In this document: positions 901 to 40,541 of the stretch, one piece after another
How positions within the stretch are numbered: the stretch's first letter is position 1
Layout: every line of letters begins with the position of its first letter
Assembly (NCBI GenBank): GCA_030248195.1
Contig: JASAND010020041.1
Location: 1 to 64,000 of the forward strand
Source: Trissonchulus latispiculum
Taxonomy: Eukaryota > Nematoda > Enoplea > Enoplida > Ironidae
DNA length: 64,000 nucleotides
Direction of reading: 5' to 3'
The notes under the pieces: generated by a model
Databases searched by the model: none
Told to the model about the DNA's origin: nothing
Seen by the model: the letters and a program-made list of their open reading frames with translations, nothing else
Position numbers and translations under genes: made by a program

Positions 901-1489
901 AAACTTTATAGACAAAGTTTCCATCCTCTGCACCACTTTCCTAAAAGTTATACTAAAAACGCTTACGAGGATGCTTTTTTTCCGAGCTGTCTCTTTTGAT
1001 GTCTCATAAGGGGTTTTTTTCTAGCATTTTAGAATCCACAGTTAGAAAAAGTTTAAAGCTTTCATAGATTCACCTCATATATATATATATATATTCTTGT
1101 AGTACTAAACAAAAATAAGAATGTAAGCTAGGTTTTATGCCTCCCGGAGCTGGAAAAAATTTTTGGCTGCGGGCCAAAGTCTGCCCAAACGCTAAAATGG
1201 CCAAAAAAGTATGCTTCAAAGGCGCCTTAATAAGTCAGATTGGGCTATATATGGGGTAATACTGACTATATGGTTAAACAGTACACATATCGGGGTCGTT
1301 CAAATGCTATATGATTTTCCGTCTCTGTGCGTAATTTTTCGGTACTGGCCGGCCAAAGTTGGTGAATTTTGGGTCGAACTTTGAACTTAATTTTTTCGCT
1401 TATTTTGCTACATGGGTGGCTCAAATTTTGCATACAAAGGTTTTTTTGAGACGGAGAATCGATTCCCGCTATCAATTTTGCTGCCCGAG

Positions 1490-1870
1490 TAGCCCAATTT
1501 GCTGGGCTGGTTCCACTTGACCGTCTGAGGGGTCAGTTCGGTAACCGCTTCCTGGAGGTCCATAGTAGGCTTTACTTTGCCTCTCCAAACTTTGTCTATA
1601 GGGGTTTTCTGGTGCGCACAGCTCATTCCCGGTGTTTGTTTTGCCGTCTGACCCACCCATCTTGCTGTGCTGGTTCCACTTTGCCGTCTGGAGGGTCCGG
1701 TCGGTACCGACTTCCGGGAACACCATATAGGGCTGTACATAGCCTCTCAAAACATTGTCTATAGGGGTTTTCTGGTGCGCCCAGCTCATTCCTGGCATCC
1801 GTTTTGCCGTCTGACCCACTCATCTTGCTGTGCTGGTTCCACTTTGCCATCTGGAGGGTCATGTCGGTCG
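1490..1870 (+). repeat. Tandem repeat, about 162-bp period, 2-3 units
   Basis: The phrase TGGTTCCACTT recurs at about 1508, 1671 and 1833 (spacings 163 and 162). Each unit also contains CTATAGGGGTTTTCTGGTGCG. The long shadow ORFs here come from the repeat. The array abuts the 147-bp array and is mirrored at 640-900. Confidence 0.75.
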
Positions 1871-1878
1871 GATGTCAT

Positions 1879-2590
1879 GGGGTCAAAAATGAAATTTTTC
1901 AAAAGTGGTCAAATTTGGTATCAAATGAAAGCCCTCAGCGAGCTGAGCAACTTTTGTCATAGAACTGCATGCTCAAAGTGGCTATAGAGTGCTGTGGTGG
2001 GGTGGGGTGGGGACTTAGGCGATTTTCGGTCAAAAATGAAATTTTCCAAAAGTGGTCACATTTTGTATCAAATGAAAGCTCTCAGCGAGCTGAGCAACTT
2101 TTGTCATAGAACTACATGCTCAAAGTGGCTATAGAGTGCTGTGGTGGGGTGGGGTGGGGACTTAGGCGATTTTCGGTCAAAAATGAAATTTTCCAAAAGT
2201 GGTCAAATTTGGTATCAAGTGAACGCCCTCAGCGAGCTGAGCAACTTTTGTCATAGAACTGCATGCTCAAAGTGGCTATAGAGTGCTGTGGTGGGGTGGG
2301 GTGGGGACTTAGGCGATTTTGGGTCAAAAATGAAATTTTTCAAAGGTGGTCAAATTTGGTATCAAGTGAAAGCCCTCAGCGAGCTGAGCAACTTTTGTCA
2401 TAGAACTGCATGCTCAAAGTGTCTATAGAGTGCTGTGGTGGGGTGGGGTGGGGACTTAGGCGATTTTCGGTCAAAAATGAAATTTTTCAAAAATGGTCAA
2501 ATTTGGTACCAAATGAAAGCCCTGAGCGAGCTGAGCAACATTTGTCATAGAACTGCATGCTCAAAGTGGTTGTGCAGGGCTGTGGTTGGC
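1879..2590 (+). repeat. 147-bp tandem satellite, about five units (family A)
   Basis: GGTCAAAAATGAAATTTT starts at 1881, 2028, 2175, 2322 and 2469, a spacing of exactly 147 bp each time. Every unit contains GGTATCAAATGAAAGC, CAGCGAGCTGAGCAAC and a G-rich GGTGGGGTGGGGTGGGGA stretch. The units are highly similar, so the array is recent or homogenised. A relative with 148-149-bp spacing sits in family C at 6521-6990. Confidence 0.9.
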
Positions 2591-2657
2591 TCGCTTGCTA
2601 CTGTTGAAAGATATCTATACATACCTTCAGGAGCATACATATATAAAATAATAGAAA

Positions 2658-3193
2658 ACAAGAACAAAAAGTGCTCCTTCGTCGCATGTAAAATACATAT
2701 GAGTCTTCGTAGGCAGGTTGTACATAAGCAAAAACTAGCCTGTAAAATACATATGAGTTCCGTAGGGAGGTTGTAAATTAAGGAAAACAAGTTGGATCCG
2801 CTTAACATATGAGCCTGTCCTATAACGAGGCTCATATTGGCGTCACAGTACATTCCACATTAAAGCCTCATTAAAGAACCTCCGCTTCATCCTCATTACG
2901 GAGAAATGAATAGACGTGGCCCAGAAGAAATGGACTGAAGTGAACTACGACTGCTCAAGCTGAACTGTACATGCAACCTGATGTTTTCTGAAACACTATG
3001 GCACACCTCTCTAATGCATTCTCGAAACACTTTCACATTATACACACGCAGAATGTGTTCCCACTTGGCTGTGAGTCAGAGCGCCTCATGGCGTACCGTA
3101 TTGAGCATATGCACACTATAATGACTGATCAACATTATGAAGGATAATTTGTAATGAAAAGCTTTATGCAGTATATATGTATTTATATAAAAG

Positions 3194-3231
<38 letters not shown>

Positions 3232-3832
3232 GCAAATTATTCGTATTATGACATACGCCAATATGAGCCTCGTTGTAGGACAGGCTCATATGTTAAGCGG
3301 ATCCAACTTGTTTTCCATAATTTACAACCTCCCTACGGAACTCATATGTATTTTACAGGCTGGCTTTTTCCTAGGCAAAAATTTCTGGGGGGGAAGTCTG
3401 GGGGGGGTCCCCCCCCCCAGGTCTGGGGGGGGCTCGGATTTCTGGGGGGGAAGAAAAATGTCTAAAAATAGCTATTTTTTGCTGCTGAGCTAAAAAATTC
3501 ACTATTTTTAACTTAAATTTAAGCTTAAAATAGCTAAAAAATGCTTAAAAATGGGTAAAAATCCGGCGAAGCCGGAAAAAATTTTCAAAATTTGCCCTAA
3601 AAACCCTATTTTTCCGGGCACTTTAGGGTAGGGGGTGGGTTCTGGGGGGGGAAGGCCCGAATCCTGGGGGGGGGGCGAGCCAAGTCTGGGGGGGGGGCCG
3701 GATTTCTGGGGGGGGGCCCCCACCCCCCCCTGTAGGAAAAAGCCAGACAGGCTAGTTTTTGCTTATGTACAACCTGCCTACGAAGACTCATATGTATTTT
3801 ACATGCGACGAAGGAGCACTTTTTGTTCTTGT
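2658..3832. mobile_element. Terminal block of composite element family A (L arm, spacer, R arm)
   Basis: The left arm runs 2658-2846 and begins ACAAGAACAAAAAGTGCTCC. Its inverted copy runs 3255-3832 and ends in TTGTTCTTGT, interrupted by a 387-bp MITE. Within the arm a module (CATATGAG, then AGGTTGTA, then a CTAG/CAAG-like end) occurs twice and closes with an inner hairpin CATATGAGCC...GGCTCATAT. The spacer of about 400 bp holds a (TA)n tract at about 3195-3230 and no gene. The layout matches families B and C although the sequences are strongly diverged. Confidence 0.75.
3360..3746. mobile_element. 387-bp MITE with CTGGCTTTTTCCTA termini and 5-bp TSD
   Basis: The ends CTGGCTTTTTCCTA and TAGGAAAAAGCCAG are perfect 14-bp inverted repeats. 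They are flanked by ACAGG at 3355-3359 and 3747-3751, read as a 5-bp target-site duplication in the R arm of family A. The unfilled site is visible in the L arm near 2735. The interior has long poly-G/poly-C runs and a CCGGCGAAGCCGG hairpin at 3563-3575. A larger relative lies at 22828-26461. Confidence 0.85.
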
Positions 3833-3937: not shown

Positions 3938-4840
3938 AATTTACTGGGGAAAAAGCCAAGTTCGGGAAAAAAGCCACTTTGGTCGAAGCATATCCTGAAG
4001 GCCTAGACCAATTCTGAGTGTTCCATCATATTCAGCGTCGCTTATTTATATACCCTAGGTTAGTTGCATACCGAGGCAAATTTTCTTCGTAAAGCATTAA
4101 AAACAACTTTTGAGTTTGCAGCATATATAAACTGGCTAGGTTTCATCGAATATAACGTAAACATACAATTTTTTAAAAAACTTGCTAAAGCGATGGCTAA
4201 CTACAAAATAGTGTTTTCCTATGAATTCGTAATGCTCTTTTTGGCCAAATGTGTCCGTTTCGGGATGAAATGTGGTGTGTAGCGGTCAAAATGACTGACG
4301 TGACATATTAGCCCAAAAGTTGCTCATTTCAGGAACTAAGTACATACAAACGGTGTTGCTTTGTAAAACTTGAATTGCTGATTATTTTCAAAACAGTTAT
4401 AATCTCAAAAATCTAGGAAAACTGCTTAATATGGGTCTAGCAAGCGACTGGCTTTTTTCCGGTAGGTCAAAATCATCGTGAAAAAGCCACACCTGCGTAG
4501 ATACCACGTGACGTCGTAAATTGTTTACATTTGTATGAAAACAAAGCCAGACATGTTCCCACTTGATTGCAGTAGAAATTATTCAGATAGCGCTATTGAC
4601 ACTAAAGTTATGAATTTTTGAAACATTACCGTTTTCCCGCCTTTTCAGGAACAAAGTTTACCAAAAAATGTCGACCCTGCTGTTGACTGTAGAGGAGAGC
4701 CAGAGAGCTAAAAATCATCGTGTGGGCTTATATTGAGGTCGTCATTCAACTTACCAAATATTACTGCAATAGGTTCACCCGTTAGGTCACGGCGGTCGTG
4801 GTTTTTCCCCCGAAATTTTGACGTGGCTTTTTTCCCGATT
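3938..4840. repeat. Probable transposon remnant with GGGAAAAAAGCCAC ends
   Basis: GGGGAAAAAGCCA and GGGAAAAAAGCCAC near 3952-3982 are matched in inverse by GTGGTTTTTCCCCCG and GTGGCTTTTTTCCCG near 4798-4836, with internal copies near 4449 and 4475. No coding region is convincing and no TSD was found. From 4841 to 4967 I see nothing further. Confidence 0.4.
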
Positions 4841-4967
4841 GACTATATACGGAGTAAACACATCCGTCCTCTACTAAGGCTCTTTAAGACATCGGAGTTG
4901 CTGACAGGAACTTAATTTTTATCATACGTAATTAATTAAGTGGAAATGTCTACGCAAGGCTAAAATT

Positions 4968-5515
4968 TTGGGAAGTTTATGCAGAGCTCCGACAAAGGTG
5001 CGGAAGTTTCAAAATCGTGCTGAAATTTGCATGTTTTTCGCAAAAAGCACGGGATTGGTGTCTTCTTCATCTTCGTCATCTTCATTGCTTCGCTGTTGTA
5101 CGTATACACGCATCATAGGGGTCGCGGTAGCCAGCGGGTGCGAAACGGTGGCCCCTACTCTTCCCTTCCCAGAGAAGGCATCTCCTGTACCCTCCCAAAG
5201 AGAGACCCAGGCCTCCCCCTATCCGAGCGACTATCCGATCGCCTTTTTTGTTGCCGGTCCAGGTAGACCCGCCTTCTGGAACCGGCTGCTTCTCATGGCG
5301 GAGGATGCTGAACCAAACCTAGGGCCTACCCAATGGCCTTGTGGTATCTGCTCCCTAAATGTTAACAGAAGAGACTACTCAATTCAGTGCGCTCAGTGTG
5401 CTATCTGGCACCATCGAAAGTGTACTTTCGGTCAGTACACTGGAAGTCGAAAGTGTACTTTGGCTGGACGGTCAGTCGTATACGGTCACTCGTGAATGTT
5501 TCCTGGTCTTGCCCA
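4968..5515 (+). pseudogene. Broken LINE ORF fragment: 2A-like motif followed by a PHD finger
   Basis: The reading frame 4968-5495 encodes a segment ending in a hydrophobic stretch and DAEPNLGPT, very like the D-x-E-x-N-P-G-P core of 2A ribosome-skipping peptides, with Leu in place of the second-last Pro. Directly after it comes a PHD-type zinc finger (CGICS, then CAQCAIWHHRKC). The closing WSCPRC lies in a different frame near 5500, so a frameshift separates the two halves. Arrangements of 2A plus a PHD finger are known from the N-termini of CR1-like non-LTR retrotransposon proteins. No endonuclease or RT follows, so this is a truncated 5' fragment. A microsatellite of TATT units at about 5664-5694 follows. 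Confidence 0.55.
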
Positions 5516-5709
5516 AGGTGCCCAATGACCCAGCATCCCCAACCCGCGGCGCACCCCTCCCGCGACTGCCTTTGCTGCTACTGCTGCGGCTGCCAACCAA
5601 CCGCAGCCTCCAGCACCGCCCCCCAGACCCCCACTGTAGTGCAAAAACAGAATCTTCAAAGCAAGTATATATATATTTATTTATTTATTTAACGTTGCGC
5701 ATACTGCAA

Positions 5710-5772
5710 TATCGTTTATAAAGACCAAGTAAACGATATATTATGTAGGGGCGCGATAGCGCCCCTACATAA
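5710..5772. repeat. Paired hairpins at the end of composite element C
   Basis: There are two adjacent perfect palindromes. ATATCGTTTA pairs with TAAACGATAT (5710-5739). TTATGTAGGGGCGC pairs with GCGCCCCTACATAA around a GATA loop (5741-5772). The second has a counterpart with changed stem sequence at 25849-25883, next to homologous flanks. I read it as the end opposite the ACAAG arm. Confidence 0.7.
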
Positions 5773-6460
5773 TATGGGTATAAAGGCGTCTGCGCGGCCC
5801 CCTGGAGACAGTGTTGGCCTGGTGCCAGCTAATTAGAGGTCCGGGAGGGGTAAAAAGGTTACCATCGTAAAGTACTCGAGCAGTACTACAAGTATCACCA
5901 TACTTTTGGTTAAAATTCCAGACTTCGAAATTTTGCACTAGGCGGGAGTTACCGTGCGTTTGTTTTTTTTTCTCGGTTAATAACGCTTTTCGGAAGTGCA
6001 TATGTCAGGCAGTGTTGGAACGATATGGGCATTTTGGCCCAATACTACTATTATATGTTGGTAGGCAGGGTCCTCCCATGCAACCTTTTTTTGGTCATTT
6101 TGGCACCTGGCCAATTTTGGCTCTGTGCCAAGGCCTCAAAGTCGGACTTTCGCTATTTTGGCACTTCGGTTGTGATCGACTTTTTTTCACAGGTTAGCAG
6201 CTAGATCGGTTTGGTTTGTTTTATTTGAATATTTCGGACTATGCGCGGAATGTAACGAGGGGGATTTTTTAATTTCGCTCTGGACCTTTCAGGAGATGGG
6301 CCCAAAATTTGCATTTTTTCACCTGTTTTGGCGAAAATTTTCTAAGTCCCACTTTTACTAGAAATGGCCTAAAAGTCACTAAAAATGGCGTTTTTCGGCC
6401 TTGGGGTAGTAGTACCCATATATAGTAAATTGGGGTCGCTGAAAACGATGAGCATACTGC
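5773..6460 (+). repeat. D unit of composite element C
   Basis: This roughly 700-bp segment is homologous in inverse to 25150-25849. Shared landmarks are AATATGGGT-TAAA-GGC beside the hairpin, GTGCCAGCTAA, AGTACTACAAGT, CGTTTGTTTTTTTT and, at the far side, GGGGTCGCTGAAAACGATGAG. It has no convincing ORF. In both copies it lies between the GC hairpin and the satellite array. Confidence 0.7.
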
Positions 6461-6520
6461 TGAGGTCGGTGGATGTGACCCCTGACCCACAGCGCCCACC
6501 CACAGTGGGTCCGGTGTGGG

Positions 6521-6990
6521 TCAAAAATGAAAGTCTTCAAAAGTGGTCAAATTTGGTATCAAATGAAAGCCCTTGACGAGGCGATCAACTTTTGTCATTA
6601 TGCCACCCACAAAAAGTGGCCCACCGACCTGTGGGTGGGTGCCCCACCCACTGTGGGTCCAGTGTGGGTCAAAAATGAAAGTCAGCAAAAGTGGTCAAGT
6701 TTGGTATCAAATGAAAGCCCTTGGCGAGGCGATCAACTTTTGTCATTATGCCACCCACAAAAAGTGGCCCCACCGACCTGTGGGTGGGTGCCCCACCCAC
6801 TGTGGGTCCGGTGTGGGTCAAAAATGAAAGTCTTCAAAAGTGGCCAAGTTTGGTATCAAATGAAAGCCCTTGGCGAGGCGATCAACTTTTGTCATTATAC
6901 CACCCACAAAAAGTGGCTCCACCGACCGGTGGGTGGGTGGCCGGCGTGGGTCAAAGATTAAAATCTTCAAAAGTGGTCATGTTTGGTATC
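6521..6990 (+). repeat. About 148-bp satellite of element C, 3-4 units
   Basis: TCAAAAATGAAAGTC starts at 6521, 6669 and 6818, with a weaker start at 6951 (spacings 148, 149 and 133). The core TTTGGTATCAAATGAAAGCC is shared with the 147-bp satellite of family A, so the satellites are homologous across subfamilies. A single diverged unit recurs at about 14400-14520. Confidence 0.85.
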
Positions 6991-7276
6991 AAATGAAAGC
7001 CCATTTGCTCACATTTGCCCTGCCTATTGCATTGTTCAAGCTCCTTATCTGCGTTAGCTCACTGCTGGAAAGGGAACCTTTAAAATGACAGAAGGACAAG
7101 TAATAAAAATGCTCCTCCGGAGCATGAAAAAGTAATATGGGTAGTGGTGAGGTTGTAAAATCAAGAGAGGACTAGTCTTAAAAATGCTTAATATGGGGCT
7201 AGGTTCAAAAAAGAAGAGGACTAGGTTGTGGGCGAATTAATATGGGCACAGCTTCGCCGAGCAACCCATATTCGCG

Positions 7277-8190
7277 GGCTTTCACGCTTCGCCATGGCGA
7301 TTGCCATATATATACAAAGCAATTAATGTCAGTCAATAATTACAATTCCAGCAGTTATATATACGTAAACTATATAGCGCGGCGGGAAAAAAACCCAATC
7401 CGATATGCGGGAAAAAACCCCATCGCCAGTGTGAGTCACCCATATGAGCTAGATCGGATTTTAATAGCCTATCTTAAAGAGCGTCCAAAACTACCCTAGA
7501 GGATGTATTATTGTAGCTCCCGCTGCCTCCCAGCAAATTTTTTGGGACTTTGAAAATTTTGGAATTTTTGGTCCCAACATGGGGGTCAGACAGGGTCAAC
7601 TTTGGGGGGTCACCCTGAACTACTGGAAAGACCTAGCCCAAAACGGATAACAGTTTCACAGAGGATATGTCTCGAACTTCACGACGGTGTATGCAATTTG
7701 GCTCTAGTACCTGTGGTGCGACCTGGGGGTGACCTAGACTCGGCGGGAAAAAAAACCCATGTGCGGGGAAAAAACCCAAATTTCAAAATGAAATTTTTTT
7801 CTAACCATTAGCAGCAAAGGAAAAATTCATGCATTCCCTAGCTCAGTAGAGCCTCCTGTTTAATTTAGTATAGATTTTACCTAGGTTCGACCTTCTATGT
7901 GTGGTCCAGGTGGCCAAAATCTGAGATGGTGCCATTTTCAAGCCAAATTTTCAAATTTCGCCAAAAATCGCTAATTTTTCACTAAAATAGGTCGGGTTTG
8001 GCTTTAAATGCAATAAAAACACGTTTTCTATGCGATAGGATGCTTAAACTGCAGAAATTAAGCAAATTTCAAAAATTTCCAAAATTTGCCTATGTTTACG
8101 TGTTAAACATACGAAATTTTTAAAAAAATCGGAGAATTTTTGAAAAAAATATTATTTTTGTTTTGGGGAAAAAAACCCTTTTGATGGGAG
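7277..8190. repeat. Left half of the element C spacer, no gene
   Basis: AT-rich sequence with five GGG-A(6-8)-CCC motifs, a GCTTCGC mini-hairpin site near 7285 and tracts homologous to 12400-13500 in inverse. Short ORFs here show no recognisable domain. Confidence 0.55.
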
Positions 8191-8191
8191 A

Positions 8192-8216
8192 CAAGACAAG
8201 ACAAGACAAGACAAGA
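8192..8216 (-). repeat. 3' terminal microsatellite (TTGTC)n of the LINE
   Basis: Four to five tandem ACAAG units on the + strand, directly downstream of the LINE 3' UTR. They mark its 3' terminus and orientation. Confidence 0.8.
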
Positions 8217-8346
8217 GTTTACTTGAAAGAAATTGAAAATTTATTAGTACAAATACAGGTTACACACAAAGAAAATATTATATTCGCACTATAATTAACA
8301 AATTTTACAAATCAATCAAGAAGGACGGGAAAAAGACCGGCGCCGG

Positions 8347-11199
8347 TCACCTTAGCCCCCGCCCTCTTAAAAATTTACTAAGATCAACTGTAGCAAGTTT
8401 CAACTTAAGAGTACTCACTGAATTAGAATTTACAACATCGGCTGGTAATTCATTCCACACGTTAACCACACGCCAACTAAAAAAGTTTTTGGTTATCGAA
8501 AGTTTAGCCCTAGATACTGGTCTAATTCGCAAATTATGCCCTCTAGTCCCACTATCTTGACAATATTCAAAATAATCGGAAAAATCAAGATCTATCAGGT
8601 TCTTAACAATTCTAAAACATAATACAATATCATTTATAATTCTACGGTATTCCAAGCTTTCTAAGTTCAATACAGACAACCTTTCTGGATAAGTACAATT
8701 ATTGCATCCACGTAAACGCTTCGTAAACGACCTTTGGACCCTCTCCACTTTATCTATATCTTTCAATAAGTAAGGAGACCAAATCGGTGTAATATATTCT
8801 AGCAGCGGCCTAACAAAGGTTTTAAACAGATCTATAAGGAATTCAGGTTTTGTTGTTTCAAATACTCTTAAAATTCTAGAGGAGAGTATATGAGCGTTTC
8901 TACAAATCTTATTACAATAATCAGCCACTTTCTGATCCCCAGACAACAACAACCCTAAATCAGAGACGCTATTGACTTGGTCGAGTGCTTTTCCCATCAA
9001 ATTTAGGTTTAAAAACTCTGTGCTACCGATAGTTAGGGCCAAACATTTATGTGTAGCTAGGTTTAACTGCCATTTTTGCGCCCACTCCCCAACTTTGTTT
9101 AGATCTAACTGTAAATTATTACACTGGCAAGACTTCGTACAAACAGTATACACTTTGGCATCATCAGCAAATAACTCTACGGAACTATACTGTACAACTT
9201 CAGGCAAGTCATTTATGTACAACAAAAAAAGAACTGGACCCAAGACCGATCCTTGTGGTATGCCACTTGTAACTGGCAAGCTTTCAGAATACTCCCCGTT
9301 TACAATTACTTTATGGGATCGATCTCTTAAAAAGCATCTTATCCAGTCTAGTACCAAACCCGAAATTCCATATCTTTCAAGTTTAAAAATTAGCTTTTCG
9401 TGAGGTACAGAGTCAAAAGCACGAGCAAAATCTAAGTAAACACAATCAACTCGTTTACCCTGATCCCTAGCTATACACCACGAATGCATGCACGACAGCA
9501 AGTTTGTCAGCGTTGACTTGCTTTTACGGAAACCATGCTGATTCTTATTAATTAGTTTATATTTTATAAAGAAATTCCAGAGATCTTCCACTATAATGGT
9601 TTCCAGTATCTTGCAAACCACTACTGTCAAACTAACTGGTCTATAGTTAGCAGGATCAGTACTACGTCCTTTCCTTTTATAAATAGGCACAACTGTTGCA
9701 GTTTTCCACTGGTCAGGCAGAGTACCGGTTTGCAGAGATGCACTAAATAACATGCACAACACATCACATACAGACGGCAAAATTTTCTTTAGTACATAAC
9801 AAGATAAACCATCAGGTCCACAAGATTTTTTATTGTTCATTTTCTTTAAAGCTTTCTCAATTCGAGGTGGTGTAATATCAATATTTTCTAATTTATGTAC
9901 TGTGCGGTAAGGAAATTCCGGTAATTCTCCGTTATCCAACTGGTACACAGAGGCAAATACAGAGTTCAACATATTTGCTTTTTCAACATCTGTTACAGCT
10001 GACACATTCTCCCTTGTAAGTACACCAATTCCATCAATTCCTTTTAATTTTGAGTTGACGTAAGTATATAATCGCTTTTTATCCCCAGAACGTACAATGG
10101 ATTCCTCTTTTCGTCGAACAGTCATTCTTATTGCGTTTCGAGCATTTTTTGCTGCTTGCCTATAACAATTTCTGTTTTCAAAATTTGGGTTTTCTCTAAA
10201 TCTGTGCCATGCACGACGTTTTTTAACCAAGGCTTTGTTGACTTCCCGTGGCCACTTTGACTTGTGCTTATTTACAGAAACAGTAGGTACATAACAATGC
10301 ATTGCATAATTGACAATTTGCACAAAAGAAGACCAATCACTGTTTAAGTCTCCAGACAAAATAGTTTCCCAATCAACACTGAACAAAAATTCATTCATAC
10401 CATCGAAATTCCCATTTTTTACATCGAATTTTTCGGATCTAGGCACACTTTTATTAATTTTATTGATTAAAATTTCAAAATCAACCGTATTATGATCGCT
10501 AGTGGAGAAGGGTAACGATATGTCAACATTATTGATAATATCTTCATTATTTGATAAAACTAAATCTAATATATTGCTCTCCCTGGTTGGTGAATTCACA
10601 TGTTGAAATAAACCAATTTCATTGAAAAGATTCAGAAATTCCGTTTCAATTCCGCTTGAACTTCTATATTCCTCCCAGTTTACGCCAGGAAGGTTAAAGT
10701 CCCCCACTAACAAAGTATTACTTAATTGACATTGAGTACGTAAGCATTCAATCAATTCGTTATCAGCCTGCATAGAAGAAGTAGGTGATCGATATACCAC
10801 AACACAATGTAATTTTAACCTTCCCAAGTAAACTTTAACAATCAATATTTCACAAAAACCCATAAAACTACAAGCAAAAACTGGCTCAGTAGGTAAGTTA
10901 TGGCGCACTAGCATACAACATCCTCCGTGACCCCTTTCTGCTCTATCACTTCTATAAATTTTGTAATTGGGAAGTCCACATAATTCTGAGTCTACAATTT
11001 CCTCCTTTGCCCATGTTTCAGTAATAAAGACAATATCTGGATTTTTTGAGTTAATTTCCAGTTCCAATTCACTCCTTTTGTTCGTCAAGCACTGTGCGTT
11101 CAGCAGCGTGCAGTTTAAAATCTCTATACTATTAACTTGGCTTTGTGGGGGGCGAGGACCAGCGCGCCTTAGTTTACCTGTACAACATGACCAGTCACC
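8347..11199 (-). CDS. LINE ORF2: endonuclease and reverse transcriptase
   Basis: The frame is open from 11199 to the stop at 8347, about 950 codons. An N-terminal APE endonuclease shows LNCTLLNAQCL, ITETW, VGDFNLPGVNW and the catalytic SDHNTVDF. The central reverse transcriptase shows YRPVSL, VYLDFARAFDSVPH, SGIPQGSVLGPVLFLLYIN and the active-site FADDAK. A C-terminal extension follows. The protein nicks the target and primes reverse transcription of the element RNA. There is no ATG between the upstream in-frame TAA (11200-11202) and the endonuclease start, and the frame overlaps ORF1 by 31 nt. This suggests re-initiation, frameshifting or a non-AUG start. Clade assignment between CR1, Rex and Jockey is not resolved. 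Confidence 0.9.
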   Translation of the reverse strand, partial: GDWSCCTGKLRRAGPRPPQSQVNSIEILNCTLLNAQCLTNKRSELELEINSKNPDIVFITETWAKEEIVDSELCGLPNYKIYRSDRAERGHGGCCMLVRHNLPTEPVFACSFMGFCEILIVKVYLGRLKLHCVVVYRSPTSSMQADNELIECLRTQCQLSNTLLVGDFNLPGVNWEEYRSSSGIETEFLNLFNEIGLFQHVNSPTRESNILDLVLSNNEDIINNVDISLPFSTSDHNTVDFEILINKINKSVPRSEKFDVKNGNFDGMNEFLFSVDWETILSGDLNSDWSSFVQIVNYAMHCYVPTVSVNKHKSKWPREVNKALVKKRRAWHRFRENPNFENRNCYRQAAKNARNAIRMTVRRKEESIVRSGDKKRLYTYVNSKLKGIDGIGVLTRENVSAVTDVEKANMLNSVFASVYQLDNGELPEFPYRTVHKLENIDITPPRIEKALKKMNNKKSCGPDGLSCYVLKKILPSVCDVLCMLFSASLQTGTLPDQWKTATVVPIYKRKGRSTDPANYRPVSLTVVVCKILETIIVEDLWNFFIKYKLINKNQHGFRKSKSTLTNLLSCMHSWCIARDQGKRVDCVYLDFARAFDSVPHEKLIFKLERYGISGLVLDWIRCFLRDRSHKVIVNGEYSESLPVTSGIPQGSVLGPVLFLLYINDLPEVVQYSSVELFADDAKVYTVCTKSCQCNNLQLDLNKVGEWAQKWQLNLATHKCLALTIGSTEFLNLNLMGKALDQVNSVSDLGLLLSGDQKVADYCNKICRNAHILSSRILRVFETTKPEFLIDLFKTFVRPLLEYITPIWSPYLLKDIDKVERVQRSFTKRLRGCNNCTYPERLSVLNLESLEYRRIINDIVLCFRIVKNLIDLDFSDYFEYCQDSGTRGHNLRIRPVSRAKLSITKNFFSWRVVNVWNELPADVVNSNSVSTLKLKLATVDLSKFLRGRGLR

Positions 11200-12005
11200 T
11201 TATCAATAATACATCCATTCCTAATCACTGCATTTCCATTTGATTCTCTGGCTTTCTCCAACATCTGACGAAGCTTCCGGTCATCCTCCCGTTGTCTAAA
11301 TGTCAAGTCGGCCCGGGACCAGATTTTGTCCCAGTGATCCTTTTCAGTCCGGAGATTCTTCACATTGGCAATGAAAGTCGATCTGGCTTCGTTATGGCTG
11401 AATTTGAGCTTCATAATTCTGGGTTTGCCATCTTTCCTCTTGGAACCGTCACGGTACACGTCCAGGAGACAGGAATCGTCTATATCTAAACACTGAAGAA
11501 TATCTTTCACTTCGGACAGATCAGCCTCCCGGGCTTCCGCCATCGTCAATACCTTACCCTCAGCACCTACTTGCTCAGGCAAGCCGAACAGAACCGCTTT
11601 ATCCTTTTTCTCTTGCTGTTCCATAACATCACACATCTCAGCCCGAACCTGAGAAGTAGTTATGGAGGGAGGCTGGGCCTCCAGCTTGGCAATTCGACTG
11701 ATCACATCCGACATTTGGGTTTCCAGGGCTACAACCCGGTCAGATGTCAGGCTCGGCTCAGAATTCCGTGCTAAAGTTTGCCCAGCCAACAAGTTCGTAA
11801 GCTTGGAAACACATTCATCACAGTTATAAGTTAAAACGGCCAAAACTCCCTGATCAATCTTTTTGAAAACATTGTCCGAAATACCGACACAGGCCGGATG
11901 AAAATCGGATGCACAAAATTTGCAGGTGATTCGGTGGTCCATGGACCCGATCTTGGCGGTTTTATTGCGGCAAATTGCAGCAGCACATAACAAATCGGTA
12001 GCCAT
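11169..12005 (-). CDS. LINE ORF1: PHD-finger RNA-binding-type protein
   Basis: I chose ATG at 12005 (278 aa); the frame is open a little further upstream without another ATG. Residues 1-60 hold a C4HC3-like PHD finger (CAAAIC, CKFCASDFHPAC, YNCDEC). A predicted coiled-coil region with VVALETQMSDVISRIAKLEA follows. A C-terminal half with AVLFGLPE, CLDIDDSCLLDVYR and a basic helix resembles the RRM-like and CTD part of type II LINE ORF1 proteins. ORF1 proteins bind element RNA and help form the retrotransposition particle. It ends inside ORF2. Confidence 0.8.
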   Translation of the reverse strand: MATDLLCAAAICRNKTAKIGSMDHRITCKFCASDFHPACVGISDNVFKKIDQGVLAVLTYNCDECVSKLTNLLAGQTLARNSEPSLTSDRVVALETQMSDVISRIAKLEAQPPSITTSQVRAEMCDVMEQQEKKDKAVLFGLPEQVGAEGKVLTMAEAREADLSEVKDILQCLDIDDSCLLDVYRDGSKRKDGKPRIMKLKFSHNEARSTFIANVKNLRTEKDHWDKIWSRADLTFRQREDDRKLRQMLEKARESNGNAVIRNGCIIDKVTGHVVQVN

Positions 12006-12170
12006 AGCACAAAAAGGGCCAATCTCCAATAAATATATTCAACCAGTAAGTACTCCTGTAACAATAACGCGATTCAGGCTATCCGTGAGTTCTGAGCAAA
12101 TTTGGAATGTTGATCTCCAGATCGATTGCCGATTTTGCTGATAAGAATGGCGCGGCGTTACTCACGAATA

Positions 12171-13889
12171 ACCTGAATCAAATGGGTTAAAACCAATCAA
12201 AACCGTTCTAACATGCTTGCAGCAAAAAATTCGGCTGGGTTTTTTTCCCGCCCATGGGTTTTTTTTCCCGCATTGGGTTTTTTTTCCCATCGGTTTGGTC
12301 GAAAATTTCTCACCAACCGTAAGTGCTAGAGAGACGTTTTATGGCTCATTTTGAAGCTCTTCGCAAGGCCTCATGGTAGTTATCGTTAGATTTTCGATTT
12401 GTCGCTTAATAAAAAAGTTACAGCCAAAATTCGAAAATTTGGGTTTTTTTCCCGCCGCGCTATATAGTATATAATTTGGTTGTGCTGGACTACGACAAGC
12501 ATCGAGAAAAAACCAAGGCTATGATTGTAACGCTAACGGTTGAATAGAAATAGAAGATCGTCGGAGAGAGTCCTAATCCTGAAGTTAGTGTTGAAATATA
12601 TACTTTTCTAATAAATGGTTAAAACGCTCAGTAGATAAACATTAAGAGTTTACCGAAAGAAATGTTTGCTTCCACTAAAACTAGTTTATCATAGTCGTAT
12701 ATTATTTACGTACCGTAACTAAATCTGAACACTGGTACGTATATATACATATGTATAGCCATGGGGGGAAAAACCCACTTTTTCGGATTTTGGCTGGAAC
12801 TTTTTTGTTATAAGGGCTAGCTGAGAACTCTATATACCATCGTACTTGGCGTACTTAGAACTTTCTTTTAAGGCCATTTGCACTTCTCTAGGTTGTACCG
12901 TTAGGCCGGTATAATGCAAAAAGTAGCGGGGGAAAAAAACCCAATGGGGGGAAAAAACCCAAATGGGGGGAAAATAAACCCACCCCTCACAGGTCCTAAA
13001 AATTGTCGTAGCGCGATTCTGACACTTCCTGTGTAAAATTCAACTCTTTTTTAGTTAGTATGAGTCAAAAAACCCGACCTAGGTAGCTTTTTTTGAGATC
13101 TCATGTGCCATTGAAAATGCAGCATCAAATGGACAGGTTTCATAAAGTTTAACACATAAACATAGGGCAATTTTTGAAAAATGCTAAAAACGATGTAATT
13201 TGATAAAACTTATTATTCTAACGTGTAGAGAATGGTTTTTTACGTACAATTGGCTATTAAAAGTCACAATTAGACCTCTGCTGCGTCATCCAGCAGCAAA
13301 ATTGCACTTTTAGGGTTTTATGCCTCTAGCTACCCAAGTATTCAAAATTGTCCAAATCTGACAGCATAGGGTGACGCAGCGTCCTCGATAATATCGTACT
13401 ACAGTCCCGAATTGTTTCCCAGTTGAGCTGGTAAAAATTTTTTCAAAAAAAAATTTGGGTGGGTTTTTTCCCCCCAAAGTGGGTTTTTTTCCCCGCCACG
13501 TTTGGCAATGTGCCAGTCTAACGGTGCATCGGATCGGTCTAATTTTTGCTGTGTGCAAAGAGGAAGACTTGCCATCATTGCAGATATTTGCAAAACTTTT
13601 CTAGCCCAATCCAGTCAAAAGTTACATTGGTCCAAACTTCTGCCAAATTTTTGGAAGGTTGGACCAAAAAGTAGGTATCATTTTCAAAATGTCATAAAAT
13701 GAGCAAGAGTGAACCAAATGACCTGATCTTTGCACACATAGGTTAGAAAGAGTCGCGCTTTCTGCTGGTATGTTTTGGAGCTCCTAGCTCCAACCCCTGA
13801 CCCAGGAGGCGGGTGGGTTTTTCCCCCCAATAAGGGGGTGGGTTTCTTTCACCCCATGGCTATAATATATATACATAACTTTTTCAGTC
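12171..13889. repeat. Right half of the element C spacer, no gene
   Basis: The tract near 12440-12480 (GGGTTTTTTTCCCGCC then GCGCTATATAG) is the inverse of 7370-7400. At least nine further GGG-A(n)-CCC motifs occur. ORFs are short and lack domains. Confidence 0.55.
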
Positions 13890-14071
13890 CGCGAATATGG
13901 GTTGCTCGGCGAAGCTGTGCCCATATTAATTCGCCCACAACCTAGTCCTCTTCTTTTTTTGAACCTAGCCCCATATTAAGCATTTTTAAGACTAGTCCTC
14001 TCTTGATTTTACAACCTCACCACTACCCATATTACTTTTTCATGCTCCGGAGGAGCATTTTTATTACTTGT

Positions 14072-15450
14072 TATGTTTTCTTTTTCTTCTGTAACACGCG
14101 AAAAATGCTAAAATATATATAGTTATGTTGTAGAAACCGTTAAAAACCGTCTGTATACTGCGAAAAGTGAATTTCAGGAAAAAACACAGATTTTAAAAAC
14201 CACATTTTCTTAAAAAACACTAAAAAGCACAGGTAAATTTCGAAAAAACCCTGCTTAAAAGTCACTAAAAATGGCGCTTTTCGGCCTTGTGGTGGTATCC
14301 ATATATCGTAAATTGGGGTCGGTCAACACGATGGGGATACTGTCGGAACCGGTGGAGGTGACCCCTGATCCCCATGGGCCTGGGGTAAGGTGCACGGTAG
14401 GGGTCAATAATGAAAGTCTTCAAAACTTGTCAAGTTTGGTATCAGACGAACGAACGGCGAGACGAACAACTTCTGTGATTGTACCACCCACAAAAAATTG
14501 ACCCATCGCTTTGTGGGTTAGAGGTCCATCCCCAGGGGTTATATAGTCAATCGGGAAAAAACCCACTTTTCAGATTTTTAGCCAGAACTTTTTACTGGTT
14601 TGAGATACTGAAATAGTGTAAGGCACCTAGTCCTAGTCGTAAGCTTTCTTATGAAGCGCAGCGCTTTCTTACGCTTTCCCGCTGACAAAGCGGGGAAAAC
14701 CCACCCCGAAAATTTTTTGGGAAGTTGCCTGGAGCATTTCTAACCGTTCCAAATGAAAAGGAAGAGAGGGTTGTTTTTAGTATAACTGCATCAAAAGTTT
14801 TTGTTGAAAAATTGAGGTCATAGTGACTTTTGAAAATTTTGTATCTTTAATACATAAACATATTCAAATTTTCGGCAGTTTAAGCATCCTATTGTTAGAA
14901 AAGAGTTTTTCTTGTATGTAGAGTCAAACTAGGCCCATTTTAGGGCAAAAATAAGTATTTTTGGCAAAAATTGAAATTTTAGCTTGAAATGGCACCACGT
15001 CCGATTTTGACACCCTGGAGCACCCACAAGAGAACAAACCCAGGTAAAACCTGTACCGGTTTAATCTGTAGGCTCTATTAAACAAATGTATGCATTAGGT
15101 TGACTTTTCCTCCCAATGCTTAGAAACGTATTCAATTTTGAAAAGTGGGTTTTCCTGCATGTGGGCTTTTTCTCGCCAAACTCCAGGTCGCACCGGGGGG
15201 GGGGGTAGATCAGTCTGGCATAAATCGTCGTGAAGCACAACAGATGCCCTTACATACAATCCGCTTTGGTTCGTCGTCGGCGAAGCTGTGCCCATATTAA
15301 TTAATCCACAACCTAGTCCTCTTCTTTTTGACCCTAGCCCCTATATTAAGCAATTTTAATACTTTAATATTTTAATACTAGTCCTCTCTTGATTTTACAA
15401 CCTTACCACATTACGTTTGCATGCTCCGGAGGAGCATTTTTATTACTTGT
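14072..15450 (+). mobile_element. Truncated second copy of composite element C
   Basis: 14260-14350 repeats 6375-6450 (CACTAAAAATGGCG..TTTTCGGCCTT) and 14400-14520 is one satellite unit. 14540-15261 resembles 12765-13889 (GGGAAAAAACCCACTTTTC, GCCAGAACTTTTT). 15262-15450 is a full R arm ending GGAGCATTTTTATTACTTGT. Its ACTTGT end lies immediately before the COQ10 first exon. Confidence 0.7.
15262..15450 (+). promoter_or_regulatory. Transposon R arm occupying the proximal COQ10 promoter position
   Basis: The arm ends at 15450 and the COQ10 ATG is at 15484. Unless the start codon or transcription start is elsewhere, core promoter DNA must be transposon-derived. Features in the arm that could matter are the CTCCGGAGGAGC hairpin and ATATTAAG/AATATT tracts. 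The promoter role is inferred only from position. Confidence 0.35.
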
Positions 15451-19746: not shown

Positions 19747-22048
19747 CTACTGTCCTTGTAATGCACGCCCCCGCATAAACTTGTGCAGCTGAGCTTCATG
19801 CTTTAACAATTTTGACTTAAATGTGCTCAGAGAGGAACAGGTAACAATACTGTCCGGTAAACAGTTCCAAACATTGCAAATTCTATAGATAAAGAAATGG
19901 CTAGCTCTAGACTTTTTATATCGCTTAGGTCTAATAGACAAACTATTATGGCCCCTTGTCCCTGCGTCAGGCGAATATGTAAAATAATCATCAAAAGAAC
20001 AATCAAAGGCATTATACACTATACTATGCATCAAATATAAATCATACATTAACCTTCTCATTTCCAATAATTGTAGGTTGCAACGTTTAAGTCTTTCCTT
20101 GTAAGTAAAATTTTCAAGGCCATACAGTCGTTTTGTAAATGCACGCTGTACTCCCTCCACAGCGTCAATGTCTTTAAGCAAACTAGGTGACCATATCTGG
20201 GTACAGTACTCCAAAATTGGTCCAACATACGTCACAAAAAGCTTAGTTAAGAGGACTGCATCTCTACTAGAGAAACTGCTAAAAATAATTCCTACTCTCT
20301 GATTGGCCTTAGCTCTAATTTGACTTATATGTTTAGAGAAAGTTAAATCATTACTCATCATTATACCCAGGTCCCGCATAAACTCAGTATCGGACAGAGA
20401 TTCACCACCCAAAGTATAAACTTGATTATCGTTACGATAACCCAAATGCATTACCAGACACTTATTAGCTGCTACAGTCATTTGCCAATCACTAGTCCAT
20501 GCATCAATTTGAAAAAGATCATTTTGAAGCACATTTGCCCCATATGACTTATTGACAGTAGAAAAAATTTTCGCATCATCTGCAAACAATCGAATTTCTG
20601 ACAACAAATTTTCCGGTAAGTCATTAATATAAATCAAAAACAATATAGGACCCAGTACAGAACCTTGTGGTACTCCACTTGAGACTGGAGCCCAATCTGA
20701 TTTGGAGGAACCCAATTTTACTCTTTGAAATCTCCCCGTAAGAAAGGCCCTAATCCATGCCAGCATCTTTCCCCTAATCCCAAGTGCTTCTAGTTTTCGT
20801 AAAAGCTTTGAATGACAAACTGTATCAAAAGCTCGCATCAAATCAATATATACAATATCAACACAGTCACCAGCATCCCATGCGTCTATCCAACATTGAG
20901 TACATTCAAGCAATTGTGTATGGGTAGACTCTTACAAACAAAACCATGCTGGTGTTTGCTAATAAGGTGGTGCTTATTAAAGTGGTCAACCATGAAAGGT
21001 TTTACAACTCTTTCCATTGCCCTGCAACAACCAACAGTCAAACTAACAGGTCTATAATTTTTAGGATCTTTGGAATTACCCTTTTAAATAAGGACATACG
21101 TCAGCTCTCAACCAGTAGGAATTCCGCCAGAATTTAGAAATTCTCTGGAAACCTTCGTAAGCGGTATTTTAAGAGAATGAGCCAATTTCTTTTAAAAAGA
21201 CATTTGGTATGCCATCTGGACCAGCAGACAATTTTGGTGATAAATCTTTTAACACTTTGAAAACATCGTTTTCACTGAACAAACAGTCAACCAAAGAGTC
21301 CGCTTCAGATACAATATTCGCAAATTGAGGCATATTTCCATCGTCCGCCGTAAAAACAGATACAAATGTTTCATTTAACACTGAGCATTTATCTGCATTA
21401 TCATATACTACATCACCGTTACTGTTAGTAAGTGGCAACAATGCTGGAGTCTTTACTTAAACGTTTCCTCGCATAAGAATAAAAATTGTTGACTGCCAAT
21501 TTTTATTTGCTAATCGATTTTCGAAAGCTAACCGATCAAAATAAACAGCAGTTTTGACCTGTTGACATTTTTTGCCTGTGAGCTCTTTGTTGTAATTTGA
21601 TTTAGCCTTCTTAAAACGCCTCCATGCAATTTTCTTTTCTTTGATCCAGTTTCAGAGTTCTACACGACAAGGGAATTCGATACCTTTTCCCAAAGGGCTT
21701 TATCATAGGGACAAAGTTTTCGATTGCAAAATTAACGCAGTTTTTAAACTCAATCCAGTATTGTTCAATGTTAGTGCATTCCATAAATATTATATTCCAG
21801 TCTAACGAATCAAAGAAAATAGACATATCAACATAGTTAGCATTTGAAAAATCCTTCCGACGCAAATTGGGAGAATTTCCAAAACGTAAATTAGGATAAA
21901 AAAGCACAACTCCATGTTTGCTTAAACCTATTGGTTCGTCAACTGTAATACCACTTATACTAAATTCAGAAGGTCCAAATATTAAGTCTAACGTATTATA
22001 AGGTTGAACGAAATGTGTAGGTTCCTTTACAAATTGTGTAAATTTCAT
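19747..22048 (-). pseudogene. Degenerate CR1/Jockey-like LINE ORF2
   Basis: Three reading-frame blocks in order on the minus strand encode a decayed ORF2. 21611-22048 holds the endonuclease end (EPTHFVQPYNTLDLIF; LSKHGVVLF where functional enzymes have S-D-H). 21169-21441 holds the RT start (LSAGPDGIPNVFLKEIG). 19747-20913 holds the RT core (VYIDLMRAFDTV, SGVPQGSVLGPILF, FADDAK) and C-terminal region. Frameshifts near 20930 and between blocks, and the lost catalytic Asp, show it is dead. The 5' part is cut off near 22090 by a palindromic MITE. It sits antisense in COQ10 intron 2. Confidence 0.85.
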
Positions 22049-22114
22049 AAATCTTACGGCAGAGTGCTTTTTGGCTTGGGCACTTTAGCTTAGCTGAAAA
22101 GTGGGATTTTATTA

Positions 22115-22645
22115 AAACAACGTACCCCCCCAGGTCCAGATTCCGCATAACTTGACAAAATTAGCTGGAATTTGGTATGGGTGATTTTTCGACCGGGCTG
22201 CGTTCAAGCATCGCACAGTTTTTCGGTTTCGCGAAATTAAATCTTTTTCAGATTCGCAGGACCAGTGGAACCAATAATTTCTAGCTTCAGATTGATTTTG
22301 CTGTAAAGTTGAGGTGTTTTTCGCGTTCATAGAACACGGTTGCTGATTAAGCTATTTGTTAGCTTTGTATAGGCTAAGGTTTTAAGTTTAGTATGCAAGC
22401 TTATACTGAGCTGTCGAAATGCATGATCAGAAAGGGGTTTCCAATTCATGTTCTGCGACCTCGAAAACTCCTATACAACTTTACAGTAAAATTCGGTTCC
22501 CCTTGGTGTGCTCTTGCGAATCCAAAAATTTAGATTTAGTGAAACCGAAAAGTTTTGTTTGTATTCAGCTTTGTCGAAAGCATACCCAAACCAAATTTAA
22601 GGTCATTTAGTCAAGTTTTGCGGAATCTGGGCCTGGGCGAATCTT
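22115..22645. mobile_element. Diverged palindromic MITE (same family as 39832-40426)
   Basis: The whole segment is an inverted repeat. CAGGTCCAGATTCCGC near 22130 mirrors GCGGAATCTGGGCCTGGG near 22620; GGTTCCCCTTGGT and GTTCTGCGACCTCGAAAAC recur in both copies of the family. It abuts and truncates the dead LINE. No TSD could be fixed. Confidence 0.7.
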
Positions 22646-24249
22646 ATCAAGACCCAAAGGTTTTATTCCACTAAACTTATCAAGAACCAAATATTCCACT
22701 AAACTCAGGTTTTGTCAAGAAACGAATTGCCAATTCAATTTTGAGCTGTTCACTTGACAAAGCGCAGAAAAAAAGTCATGTATATGCCACCGAAATCTGA
22801 AGAATTCGGACCTCCGGTGGGACTCGGCTGACTTTTTCCTAGGCTGAAATTTCTGGGGGGCGTTAAGTTTTTTGAAAAATGCTGAAGACAGTAGCGTAGG
22901 TACAAAAACTTTTGAGGGGGGGGGGGCGGTTTTGACCGAGGACTTCTGAGGGGGGGGGGGGAATTTTCTCTTTTTTGCGTAATAATTACATGCACATTGC
23001 GTATTATGCTGTAAGTTGTCATATTAATTTAAAAGTCTCCCATGGACCACATTTTCGACTAGTTACAACTGAAAGCGATGCTTGGTCTGCGATACTCGGT
23101 TGCGGGTCTGGGGGGCGGAGCCCCCCAGAAGTTGAGAAAATTTTTAAATTTCGCCATTAAGCGCTATTGAAACATTTAATTCTTTACAATGATTTATCAA
23201 TTGTCTAACAACATTTTGTACCTTTATTTGCTATTTTCTATGTTTACTGTCTTGTCTGAAAACTCAGGCTATTAAGATGCTCACACAAGAATAAAAATGC
23301 TCCGGTGGAGCATGAAAAATGCAATATGGGTGACATTAGGTTGTGAATGGACAGAGGACTAGGTTTTAAAACGTTAATATGGGAGGGGCAGGTTGTAAAT
23401 GCCAGGAGGACTAGGTTAAAAGCGCACTAATATGGACCAGCTTCGCTGAACAACCCACATTCGCGAAAACTGTCCAGAGTTTCTATCGGCTGCTGCTTGC
23501 TGTTGCTATTGGCAGTTCTTCGGAAAATTGTACGATTTTTGTCAGCATGGCCTGCAAGTATATATTGTGGTCGTGCTCCTTATTATACAACTTAATAATA
23601 CACGTACATAATGTCAACTGCTTTTCGCATCAACTTAATACAAGATTCTGCGCTGACACTGCAGAAAACACACCTTGAACACTTTTCTACCAGAACTGCA
23701 TTGTTTTTGGAATAAGCTTTAATATTTCAAAATCGTCCCGCTTGCTTTGAAAGTTGACGAATGCAGGATCTTACTCGTATGTCATGTGGAGTGGAGCATG
23801 AGTGACCGCGAATATGGGTTGTTCAGCGAAGCTGGTCCATATTAGTGCGCTTTTAACCTAGTCCTCCTGGCATTTACAACCTGCCCCTCCCATATTAACG
23901 TTTTAAAACCTAGTCCTCTGTCCATTCACAACCTAATGTCACCCGTATTGCATTTTTCATGCTCCACCGGAGCATTTTTATTCTTGTCCTATTTCATTCT
24001 TAAGGCTCTCAGTAAAAAGCAAAAACGTTAAAGCTATGTGAAAGAAACTTTAAAAATTCCGCCAATCATTAATCGTCAACCGAAAGTACAGAACAAAGAA
24101 GCTTGAAAAGTTCCCATTTCTTCCTTTTTCTCTATTTTGACAGAAATCCAACATCCAGTACCCATGGCTGCAATAGTTTTAGTTACTGTATATAGCATAT
24201 AGCACTCTACTGCAGCGAAACCAAATGCAAACTTTAATGTCTGTGATGG

Positions 24250-24870
24250 AAACTCATAAGACACGATTTGCAATGCTCTTCCGTACTTGTATACAAAGTT
24301 TCAGGCGATTGCTCTTTGTCTCTTGCTAGTGATAAGCCGTGCTGCACTTCAGTCTTCAGCAGCACTCTACTGCAACGCAACCATACGCAAACGTCAATGC
24401 CAAAGAAGCAGACTTACACGGCACAATTTCTAATGCTTTTCCGCAGTTGCCTGCAGAATTTCAGGCGATTGCTGTTTGTCTGTTGCTAGTTATAGGCCGT
24501 GCTGTGCTTCAGCAGCACTCTACTGCAGCGCAACCAGACGCAAGCGTTAATGCCAAAGAAGGAGACTTACACGGCACAATTTCTAATGCTATTCCGCTGT
24601 TGCCTGCAGAATTTCAGGCGATTGCAAGTTATATATAGTTAGTTATAGGCCGTGCTGTACTTCAGCAGCACTCTACTGCAGCGCAACCACATGCAAACTT
24701 TACTGTCGGTGAAGGAAACTCATACGGCACGATTTGCAATGCTCTGCCGCACTTGTGTGCAAAATTTCGGGCGATTGCAACTTAACTGTAGTTAGTTACA
24801 GGCCGTGCTGTACTTCTGCAGCACTCCACTACAGCGCAACCACATAGTAACATCGTAATAAGTATACAAA
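24250..24870 (+). repeat. About 153-bp satellite of B1, four units
   Basis: CGGCAC followed by AATTTCTAATGC or GATTTGCAATGC recurs at 24419, 24572 and 24725, a spacing of 153. A weaker unit starts near 24259. Units share GGCCGTGCTG and AGCAGCACTCTACTGCA. Similar ORFs in several frames are repeat shadows. Confidence 0.85.
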
Positions 24871-25149
24871 ACGTATCTATAATAGTTTGTCATGTCCTAA
24901 ACAATCTGTATGTTGAATTTCAAATACCAGTGACGAAAGAATAACTTGTTATCGACTGTGCTGTGTTTGGGGCAGCACATACAGCACGGTGGAAGCTACA
25001 GAGTGAACTAACTAACATAGCTACAGTTCCTCCTTACTACAGACATACTTTTCACCAAGTTTCATATGTTTAGCCGTTTACAGTAAGTCTACAGACAGCG
25101 TGCTATGGTTGCTGCATAACAGTACCGCACGATAGCAGCACCGCACAGC

Positions 25150-25885
25150 GCTGCGACTATGCTCATCGTTTTCAGCGACCCCGATAACCCTTATATGCGT
25201 CCCACTATATGGCCCAAAACAGCATATTTAGGCCAATTTTTGACTATTTCCTGTAGAGTTGGGACTTTGAAATTTTCCGAAAATGGCTATTTGGCCGGAC
25301 CAACTTCGGGCCGGCCGCCAGAACGATCCTGGCCAGATATCCAAAATCGCCCTCGTTAGGACATATAAACCCTTCCGTAGATCCTTATGCAACAAACCAC
25401 GTCTCTCTAGCGTCTTCCCTGAGTTCTGTAGCTTTGACAAAAAATTGGCCATTTTTGGCCATTTTAGCGCCAAGTCCACATTTGGCCGGCCGTACAGGTG
25501 GCCGGCCGGGCCGGGCAGCGAAAAAATATCAAAAAGGTTCACTTTCGGGATATATACGTTCAGAAAAACCAAAGTTCACCTGCTGAAAATGCCCAGATCG
25601 TTCTAACACTGCGACAGAAAATTGCATTTTTCCAAGCGTGACTTACACGGAAAAAAAAACAAACGGACCTAACTTTCCCGGAAGCGAAAATTTTCAAAGT
25701 TGGAAATTTTGACCAAAACTTTTTTGCGACTTGTAGTACTCGTCGTGTAGATTCCAACGATACCAAAATTGTCCAGTTTCGTTGAGTATTTAGCTGGCAC
25801 GAAGCTCGAACGGGTCTCCAAGGGCCGCACTGAGCCTTTTACACCCATATTATAGGGGAGCGCTCTCGCGCTCCCCTATAATTAA
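25150..25885 (-). repeat. D unit and terminal GC palindrome of B1
   Basis: Homologous in inverse to 5741-6460. It ends with TATAGGGGAGCGC TCTC GCGCTCCCCTATA at 25849-25883. The stem differs from the C copy (GGGGAGCGC against GGGGCGC) while pairing is kept. Confidence 0.7.
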
Positions 25886-27592: not shown

Positions 27593-27779
27593 AATAATTA
27601 AATTAAATTAATTAAATTAATTAAACAATAAATAAATAAATAACAAATTCTGCGTGTGTGCGCGTACCCATATAAAAATGGGAATACCCCAAATTTTCAG
27701 GGAAAGCACCCCCCCCCCACCAAACGTTAAAGGACCCACGCACGACAAAAATCCGGTGTAAGCTAACCCATTTGACCTT

Positions 27780-29237: not shown

Positions 29238-29335
<98 letters not shown>

Positions 29336-40426: not shown

Positions 40427-40541
40427 AAAATGTCAGCGTTGTATGTTTACATACTGAGATGCCCCCCCGAGATTTCGGCCTTAATGTTTCGACCATCTCA
40501 TTAGGAAGAGCTGAGTGTCTTACTCTGGTATTATAAACTTT

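Follow-up and report, generated by a model that had tools for sequence, protein, structure and literature searches.

In a 64,000-nt stretch of the nematode Trissonchulus latispiculum (assembly GCA_030248195.1, contig JASAND010020041.1, positions 1 to 64,000 of the forward strand; hereafter the window), we analysed a repeated structure of satellites, inverted arms and hairpins, which most likely constitutes a single mobile element, a rolling-circle relative of the Helitrons present in thousands of copies. The three subfamilies of the window (A, B and C) and a fourth (E) have one common architecture genome-wide. From 5' to 3' it consists of a GC palindrome, a unit termed D, satellites of ~150 bp, inverted arms, a hairpin and a terminal CTTG or CTAG, the plan of subfamily E having been assembled from two halves read at different loci. 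The satellites and hairpin blocks most likely travel together as one unit. Its A/T insertion, the 3' hairpin 11–13 nt from the end, the CTAG of E and Rep-bearing contigs with the 5' half of E point to the Helitron superfamily. We consider it quite probable (roughly 0.84) that the units are non-autonomous members of the Helitron lineage with proto-Helentron-like ends, moved by the Rep/helicase of related full-length copies. An earlier reading of the window (the original prediction) had raised the possibility of an undescribed class of mobile element; on the same evidence this is probably wrong, and the element probably does not form a separate new class. Three features appear to be new: i) a terminal 5' palindrome combined with A/T targeting and Helitron-like 3' ends, ii) inverted arms of ~190 bp at the 3' side, no description of which was found for any Helitron in the available excerpts of the open-licence literature, and iii) a motif adjoining the 5' palindrome and also present in the arms, which varies in step in each subfamily.

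The whole genome (733.8 Mb, 21,732 contigs) was searched, and twenty loci (190 kb), picked around arms, were fetched. With up to 3 mismatches allowed, the end pattern AATAAAAATGCTCCNNNGGAGC has 7 matches in the window, all of them exact, versus 0.04 expected. In the genome, 6845 exact arm ends of this pattern were found (3396+3449, inner plus outer) against none for the reversed control. The view that one composite mobile element keeps its plan across A, B and C is supported. The 5' ends of B/C type number 4056 (1947+2109; reversed control 0), and for the E arm pattern 429+460 matches are exact (none for its control). One order, namely palindrome, D, satellite, arm, interior and arm, recurs among the twenty loci, where some copies are truncated or rearranged and complete copies mostly measure 2.0–3.7 kb. 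Of 59 listed 5' ends, all on contigs up to C310, 21 are followed within 5 kb by an exact outer arm (at a median of 2.4 kb), and 10 have an arm of any kind less than 5 kb upstream; variants escape the exact arm pattern used for this pairing. A scan of viral and bacterial contigs with the end and D patterns gave no match (records near the source genome were possibly excluded), and Rfam at its gathering threshold returned a single type of match, a tRNA.

Tandem repeats, inverted arms and self-comparison were used to map the structures in the window, and all agree with the arms, satellites and D units where these had been predicted; the spans of the elements had to be corrected. The complete C insertion (5741–14070, plus strand, 8330 bp), with both ends read, runs from 5' TTATGTAGGGG to CTTG 3'. 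Its terminal palindrome (5741–5772, +; 14-bp stem, loop GATA) is followed by the D unit (5773–6490, +), which starts with the motif ATATGGG adjoining the palindrome and aligns with the D of B, and by a satellite array with a unit of ~149 bp (6495–7002, +). The inner arm (7096–7280, +) probably represents the 3' end copied internally in inverse orientation, and the outer arm (13886–14070, −) forms the 3' end itself, with the hairpin ATGCTCC/GGAGCAT 12 nt before CTTG. The element is this long because a large insert sits between its arms, which enclose 6.6 kb including a long interspersed nuclear element (LINE), whereas most fetched B- and C-type blocks enclose ~0.35–0.45 kb. The LINE open reading frames (ORFs; 8347–12029, −), a PHD-like ORF1 and an ORF2 with endonuclease and reverse transcriptase (RT), are not part of the element. 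A second C-type copy (14253–15449, +) is 5'-truncated and has the CTTG end.

The complete B element (B1; 23286–25881, −; 2596 bp) has its 5' end at 25881 and consists of a terminal palindrome with a 14-bp stem (25850–25881, −), a D unit (24850–25849, −), a satellite array with a unit of ~153 bp (24201–24845, −) and a 3' block with two arms of ~181 nt (23286–23987, −). The second B copy (B2; 27791–29643, +) lies in the opposite orientation, is 5'-truncated within the satellite and retains the CTTG end. Treating 23286–29643 as one fold-back B structure was rejected, since complete single B units were found alone at other loci.

Read from 5' to 3', B and C start with TTAT(GT)AGGGG and end with CTTG; in both, the flanks of outer arms are unrelated, whereas those of inner arms are conserved. 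Hairpins occur at both element ends in B, C and E. The 5' palindrome has a 14-bp stem in B and C, with a single mismatch in a B variant, whereas the stem of E measures 13 bp, and the 3' hairpin lies 11 nt (B), 12 nt (C) or 13 nt (E) from the element end. An outer GCTCC/GGAGC hairpin had been predicted for every element, but the outer hairpin of A is not intact and differs in form from those of B, C and E. The A-type palindrome, TATAGGGGTCGC-GGTA-GCGACCCCTATA followed by ATATGAG, was found at three loci (L027, L020 and L025), and a 5' TC is possible in 2 of the 3 A ends read. The E palindrome, TTAGGGGGAGCGC-GTTA-GCGCTCCCCCTA followed by GAATAGGG, lies in a 1361-nt stretch upstream of the satellite array of contig C15212. 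The only outer E end read (L018, n=1) is TGCCCGTCGAGGGCATTTTCCCCCCTAG, then T. With this one CTAG end E agrees with the 3' CTRR of Helitrons; the ends of B and C do not match CTRR, as had been stated earlier.

Directly inside the 5' palindrome lies a motif that reads AATATGGG in B/C, whereas A has ATATGAG and E has GAATAGGG, and the version of each subfamily recurs in its own arms, where it builds the stem of the inner hairpin (CCCATATT, CTCATATT, CCCTATTC). The common motif sits on the inner side of both the 5' palindrome and the 3' hairpin. Because its three versions vary together between the 5' end and the 3' arms, it is a candidate Rep binding site, and we infer that one protein may bind both ends through it.

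The insertion site was read from B- and C-type copies, on which A/T insertion without duplication rests. Among those with a readable 5' start, 5'-truncated copies being left out, the base preceding TTAT was A in 18 of 19 and T in 1. On the 3' side, T followed CTTG in all 50 arm ends matched, a count that includes inner arms and is not independent, since T stands after CTTG there as well. To find empty sites, the 200-nt flanks of 18 copies were joined and matched against the window and the fetched loci. The joined flanks of L017 match an exact empty site (AATAA|TACA) with 90% identity over ~335 bp at window positions 7704–7370; the same junction is also matched at ~72% in L017 and L016. The L014 copy is inserted inside the arm of another copy, with an exact empty site (CCATA|TTAC); to the left of the junction the two sequences differ in length by 4 nt, at a place where arms vary anyway. 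At both sites the insertion lies between host A and T and no target-site duplication is seen, in line with the prediction of no clear duplication. Since the flanks meet when the entire unit is taken out, the outcome expected if the parts do not move independently, it is as whole units that B- and C-type copies move into A/T.

No transposase had been visible in the window, and none was found in the six window ORFs scanned; the genome, however, holds Helitron Rep genes, with 147 matches to the Helitron_like_N profile, many in long open frames. One of them (L046, on contig C5428) is a 950-aa frame with Helitron_like_N (9e-25) and DUF6570 that carries the HUH-type stretch GAPHIHMKLW; a PDB search with this protein gave no match. 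The frame adjoins, in sense, 149-bp satellites related to those of A and C. The E satellite has at least 155 matches (40 of 1119 candidates scored), with arrays upstream, in sense, of Rep matches on C5428, C14979 and C15212; on C7792, C12984 and C9345 both are present, far apart. The palindrome and D of E lie above the satellite on C15212 and C14979 (two on the latter, above its two arrays), and the distance from palindrome to Rep is 6.8 and 6.9 kb, respectively. The Rep matches on these two contigs were judged, by matched range and score, to belong to the L046 family. The palindrome with D_E was found at no fewer than 40 non-self places (40 of 1702 candidates scored), and 32 of these 40 matches begin at query positions 7–11, at most 4 nt from the predicted 5' end (TTAG at 11). 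Among the matches listed, the gap between D and satellite is 339–343 nt in all 9 pairs on the 8 shared contigs. An E arm follows the satellite at L051 (C12714) and lies within 2 kb downstream on the satellite strand in 6 of 7 contigs (up to C2577, among the matches listed), C900 being without it.

Several Helitron Rep families are present in the genome. About 40 Rep matches have near-equal scores (profile positions 3–190, E values of 1e-17 to 1e-15) and open frames of 731–1852 aa; these copies were perhaps recently active. Upstream of the Rep match on C20309, at 4300–6500 (L049), there is a coding-looking stretch and then a 227-nt inverted repeat (99%), with no satellite or palindrome; the stretch corresponds to a 5-kb gap in other Rep copies and has no bearing on the ends.

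Several observations weigh against assigning the units to the Helitron lineage. At the termini, B and C end with CTTG rather than CTRR, and B, C and E have TT instead of a 5' TC. As to the empty sites, only 2 of the 18 joined junctions are clear and exact. The L024 junction reads through TTCTA|TTA, but the match is confined to its own repeat-rich flanks and has gaps nearby; that of L016 is not exact, with a surplus of 4 nt within a TA run; the flanks of the C element of the window join at L022 (8030–8323) with 77% identity, 3 nt short at the junction; and the 66% match of L028 is uninformative. An imperfect direct repeat of 24 nt flanks L025 at some remove from the 5' end and may be either a tandem repeat of the host or a long duplication, and the remaining junctions have no spanning match in the window and fetched loci. 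As to the Rep genes, the Rep-bearing E contigs were read at the 5' half and Rep only; among the matches listed, no Rep is tied to A, B or C, and the two Rep matches within the listed contig range (C131 and C475) share no contig with listed B/C-type 5' ends.

The subfamilies are more closely related than the 'little overall identity' first ascribed to them would suggest. The D units of C (5740–6490) and B (25882–24850) align from the terminal ATTAT across ~745 nt (score 332, reached by 0 of 200 dinucleotide shuffles), and identity is ~76% between the arms of B and C and ~70% between the satellites of A and C. The satellites of A, C and E are mutually related (z 55–68), but that of B is not related to those of A and C (z 0.2 and −0.4). 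As D and arms are related while the B satellite is not, the frame and ends appear to be kept and the satellite to be exchangeable. The D unit had been reported for B and C and is found there, but it is not restricted to them, since A has one as well. The A element (915–3831, +) is 5' truncated and comprises D_A (915–1497), 163-bp repeats (1499–1868), satellite (1881–2569) and 3' block (2658–3831); it adjoins a partial inverted A copy with arm, satellite and 163-bp repeats (4–914, −). Earlier comparisons of the A centre with D were mixed, the score being reached by 26 of 200 shuffles (C) and 0 of 200 (B) on the plus strand, and by 0 of 200 (C) and 42 of 200 (B) on the minus strand. Its identity was settled because a complete A copy was found: 915–1497 is 86% like the A-type D of L027, which begins with the GC palindrome, and lacks its first ~135 nt. 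With mononucleotide shuffles, D_A is related to D_B and D_C (z 15.8 and 8.9, or 6.1 and 4.3 when the first 45 nt are left out), and D_E shows marginal likeness beyond its end (z 4.6 to C, 1.4 to B and −0.3 to A). Four loci (L016, L018, L023 and L024) represent a C-like subtype with a ~145-bp satellite resembling the inner end of D, which suggests that this satellite may have been born from D.

Known systems were compared through excerpts of the cited descriptions. The closest described ends are those of proto-Helentron-Pi from Phytophthora infestans, which has 5' TT and 3' CTAG and inserts between A and T with no duplication (PMC4067079). The element has in common with it the 5' TT, the CTAG (E only), the A/T insertion without duplication and a long Rep frame, the insertion trait being matched by B- and C-type copies and the CTAG trait by E. 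It differs in that most of the copies examined are short and non-autonomous and that B and C end with CTTG; the excerpted description of proto-Helentron-Pi names no satellites, terminal 5' palindrome or inverted arms (PMC4067079). Helitron2 likewise has hairpins at both ends and a 5' T, but its asymmetric repeat is terminal at 5' and subterminal at 3' and its insertion site is given as TTTT followed by T or C (PMC3627910, PMC5148889), whereas the present element has a shared motif inside both hairpins and inserts at A/T. Canonical Helitrons share the A/T target, the absence of duplication and a 3' hairpin 10–12 nt from the end (PMC4067079, PMC5148889), as well as CTRR with E; B and C differ in their CTTG, B, C and E lack the 5' TC, and the 5' palindrome is terminal.

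It is improbable that these are ordinary elements of the Helentron/HINE type, with TT insertion and satellite-like repeats. HINE, DINE-1 and Cg_HINE are also non-autonomous, with a satellite-like tandem core, stem-loops and no clear duplication (PMC4067079, PMC7492417), and some of the likeness to Helentron-related elements first noticed in the tandem core and stem-loops is borne out. The empty-site junctions, however, show insertion at A/T rather than TT, E ends in CTAG, and the 5' end is a long GC palindrome; HINEs have a TT target, short subterminal inverted repeats and a short 3' palindrome, and inverted arms of ~190 bp are not part of their excerpted descriptions (PMC4067079, PMC7492417). 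Fold-back DNA transposons of the Tetris or Galileo type, moved by DDE cut-and-paste, are more improbable still: Tetris combines inverted arms with tandem repeats, and A and B in the window form large inverted pairs with satellites on either side, but Tetris has symmetric ends and duplications of 8–10 bp (PMC4079207), and here the two clear empty sites are without duplication and complete fetched copies are asymmetric, with palindrome and D at one end and arms at the other. Least probable of all is that block, satellite and D are independent repeats lying together by chance, which the unrelated B satellite between related D and arms would favour as a sign that satellites can be swapped, since at the clear empty sites the flanks meet once the entire unit is taken out, the fetched loci repeat the same order and orientation, and the D–satellite gap in E is constant.

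If the units are moved as Helitrons, Rep would bind the motif inside the terminal hairpins and nick at A/T beside the 5' palindrome; the strand would be peeled off through D and satellite until the 3' hairpin terminates transfer, and slippage would vary the length of the satellite. The inner arm would be an inverted internal copy of the 3' end. The stricter proposal, that Rep recognises one motif at both ends, that each subfamily has its own motif–Rep pair and that the inner arm functions as a second 3' signal, is tentative and rather unlikely as a whole. Were it true, a second 3' signal on the other strand would allow transfer to stop early or run from either strand, and this would explain inverted pairs such as those of A and B in the window.

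Other repeats were also observed in the window. Repeated stretches at 7370–8180, 12230–12990 and 14767–15250 include several with GGGAAAAAACCC-type units, and further LINE sequence with RT lies at 19747–21068 (−). A large inverted array of 113-bp repeats rich in GATCCTGA occupies 37256–38905, a palindrome of ~600 bp (91%) at 39827–40431 is related to 22093–22637, and a 659-bp direct duplication (44730–45388 and 49415–50073; 99.7% identical) has its copies ~4.7 kb apart. Animal-like exons recognised by eye are presumably COQ10-like (near 16.2–16.6 kb) and COA8-like (near 41.1 kb).

The ends of this family combine features that have been used to divide Helitron1 from Helitron2, as do those of the proto-Helentron of the oomycete Phytophthora, as far as the excerpted description goes, and B represents a satellite exchanged within a conserved transposon frame. 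With thousands of copies, terminus recognition becomes testable from sequence alone and, if the assignment proposed here is right, the family would offer a way into the question of how termini are recognised by Helitrons and how transfer ends there.

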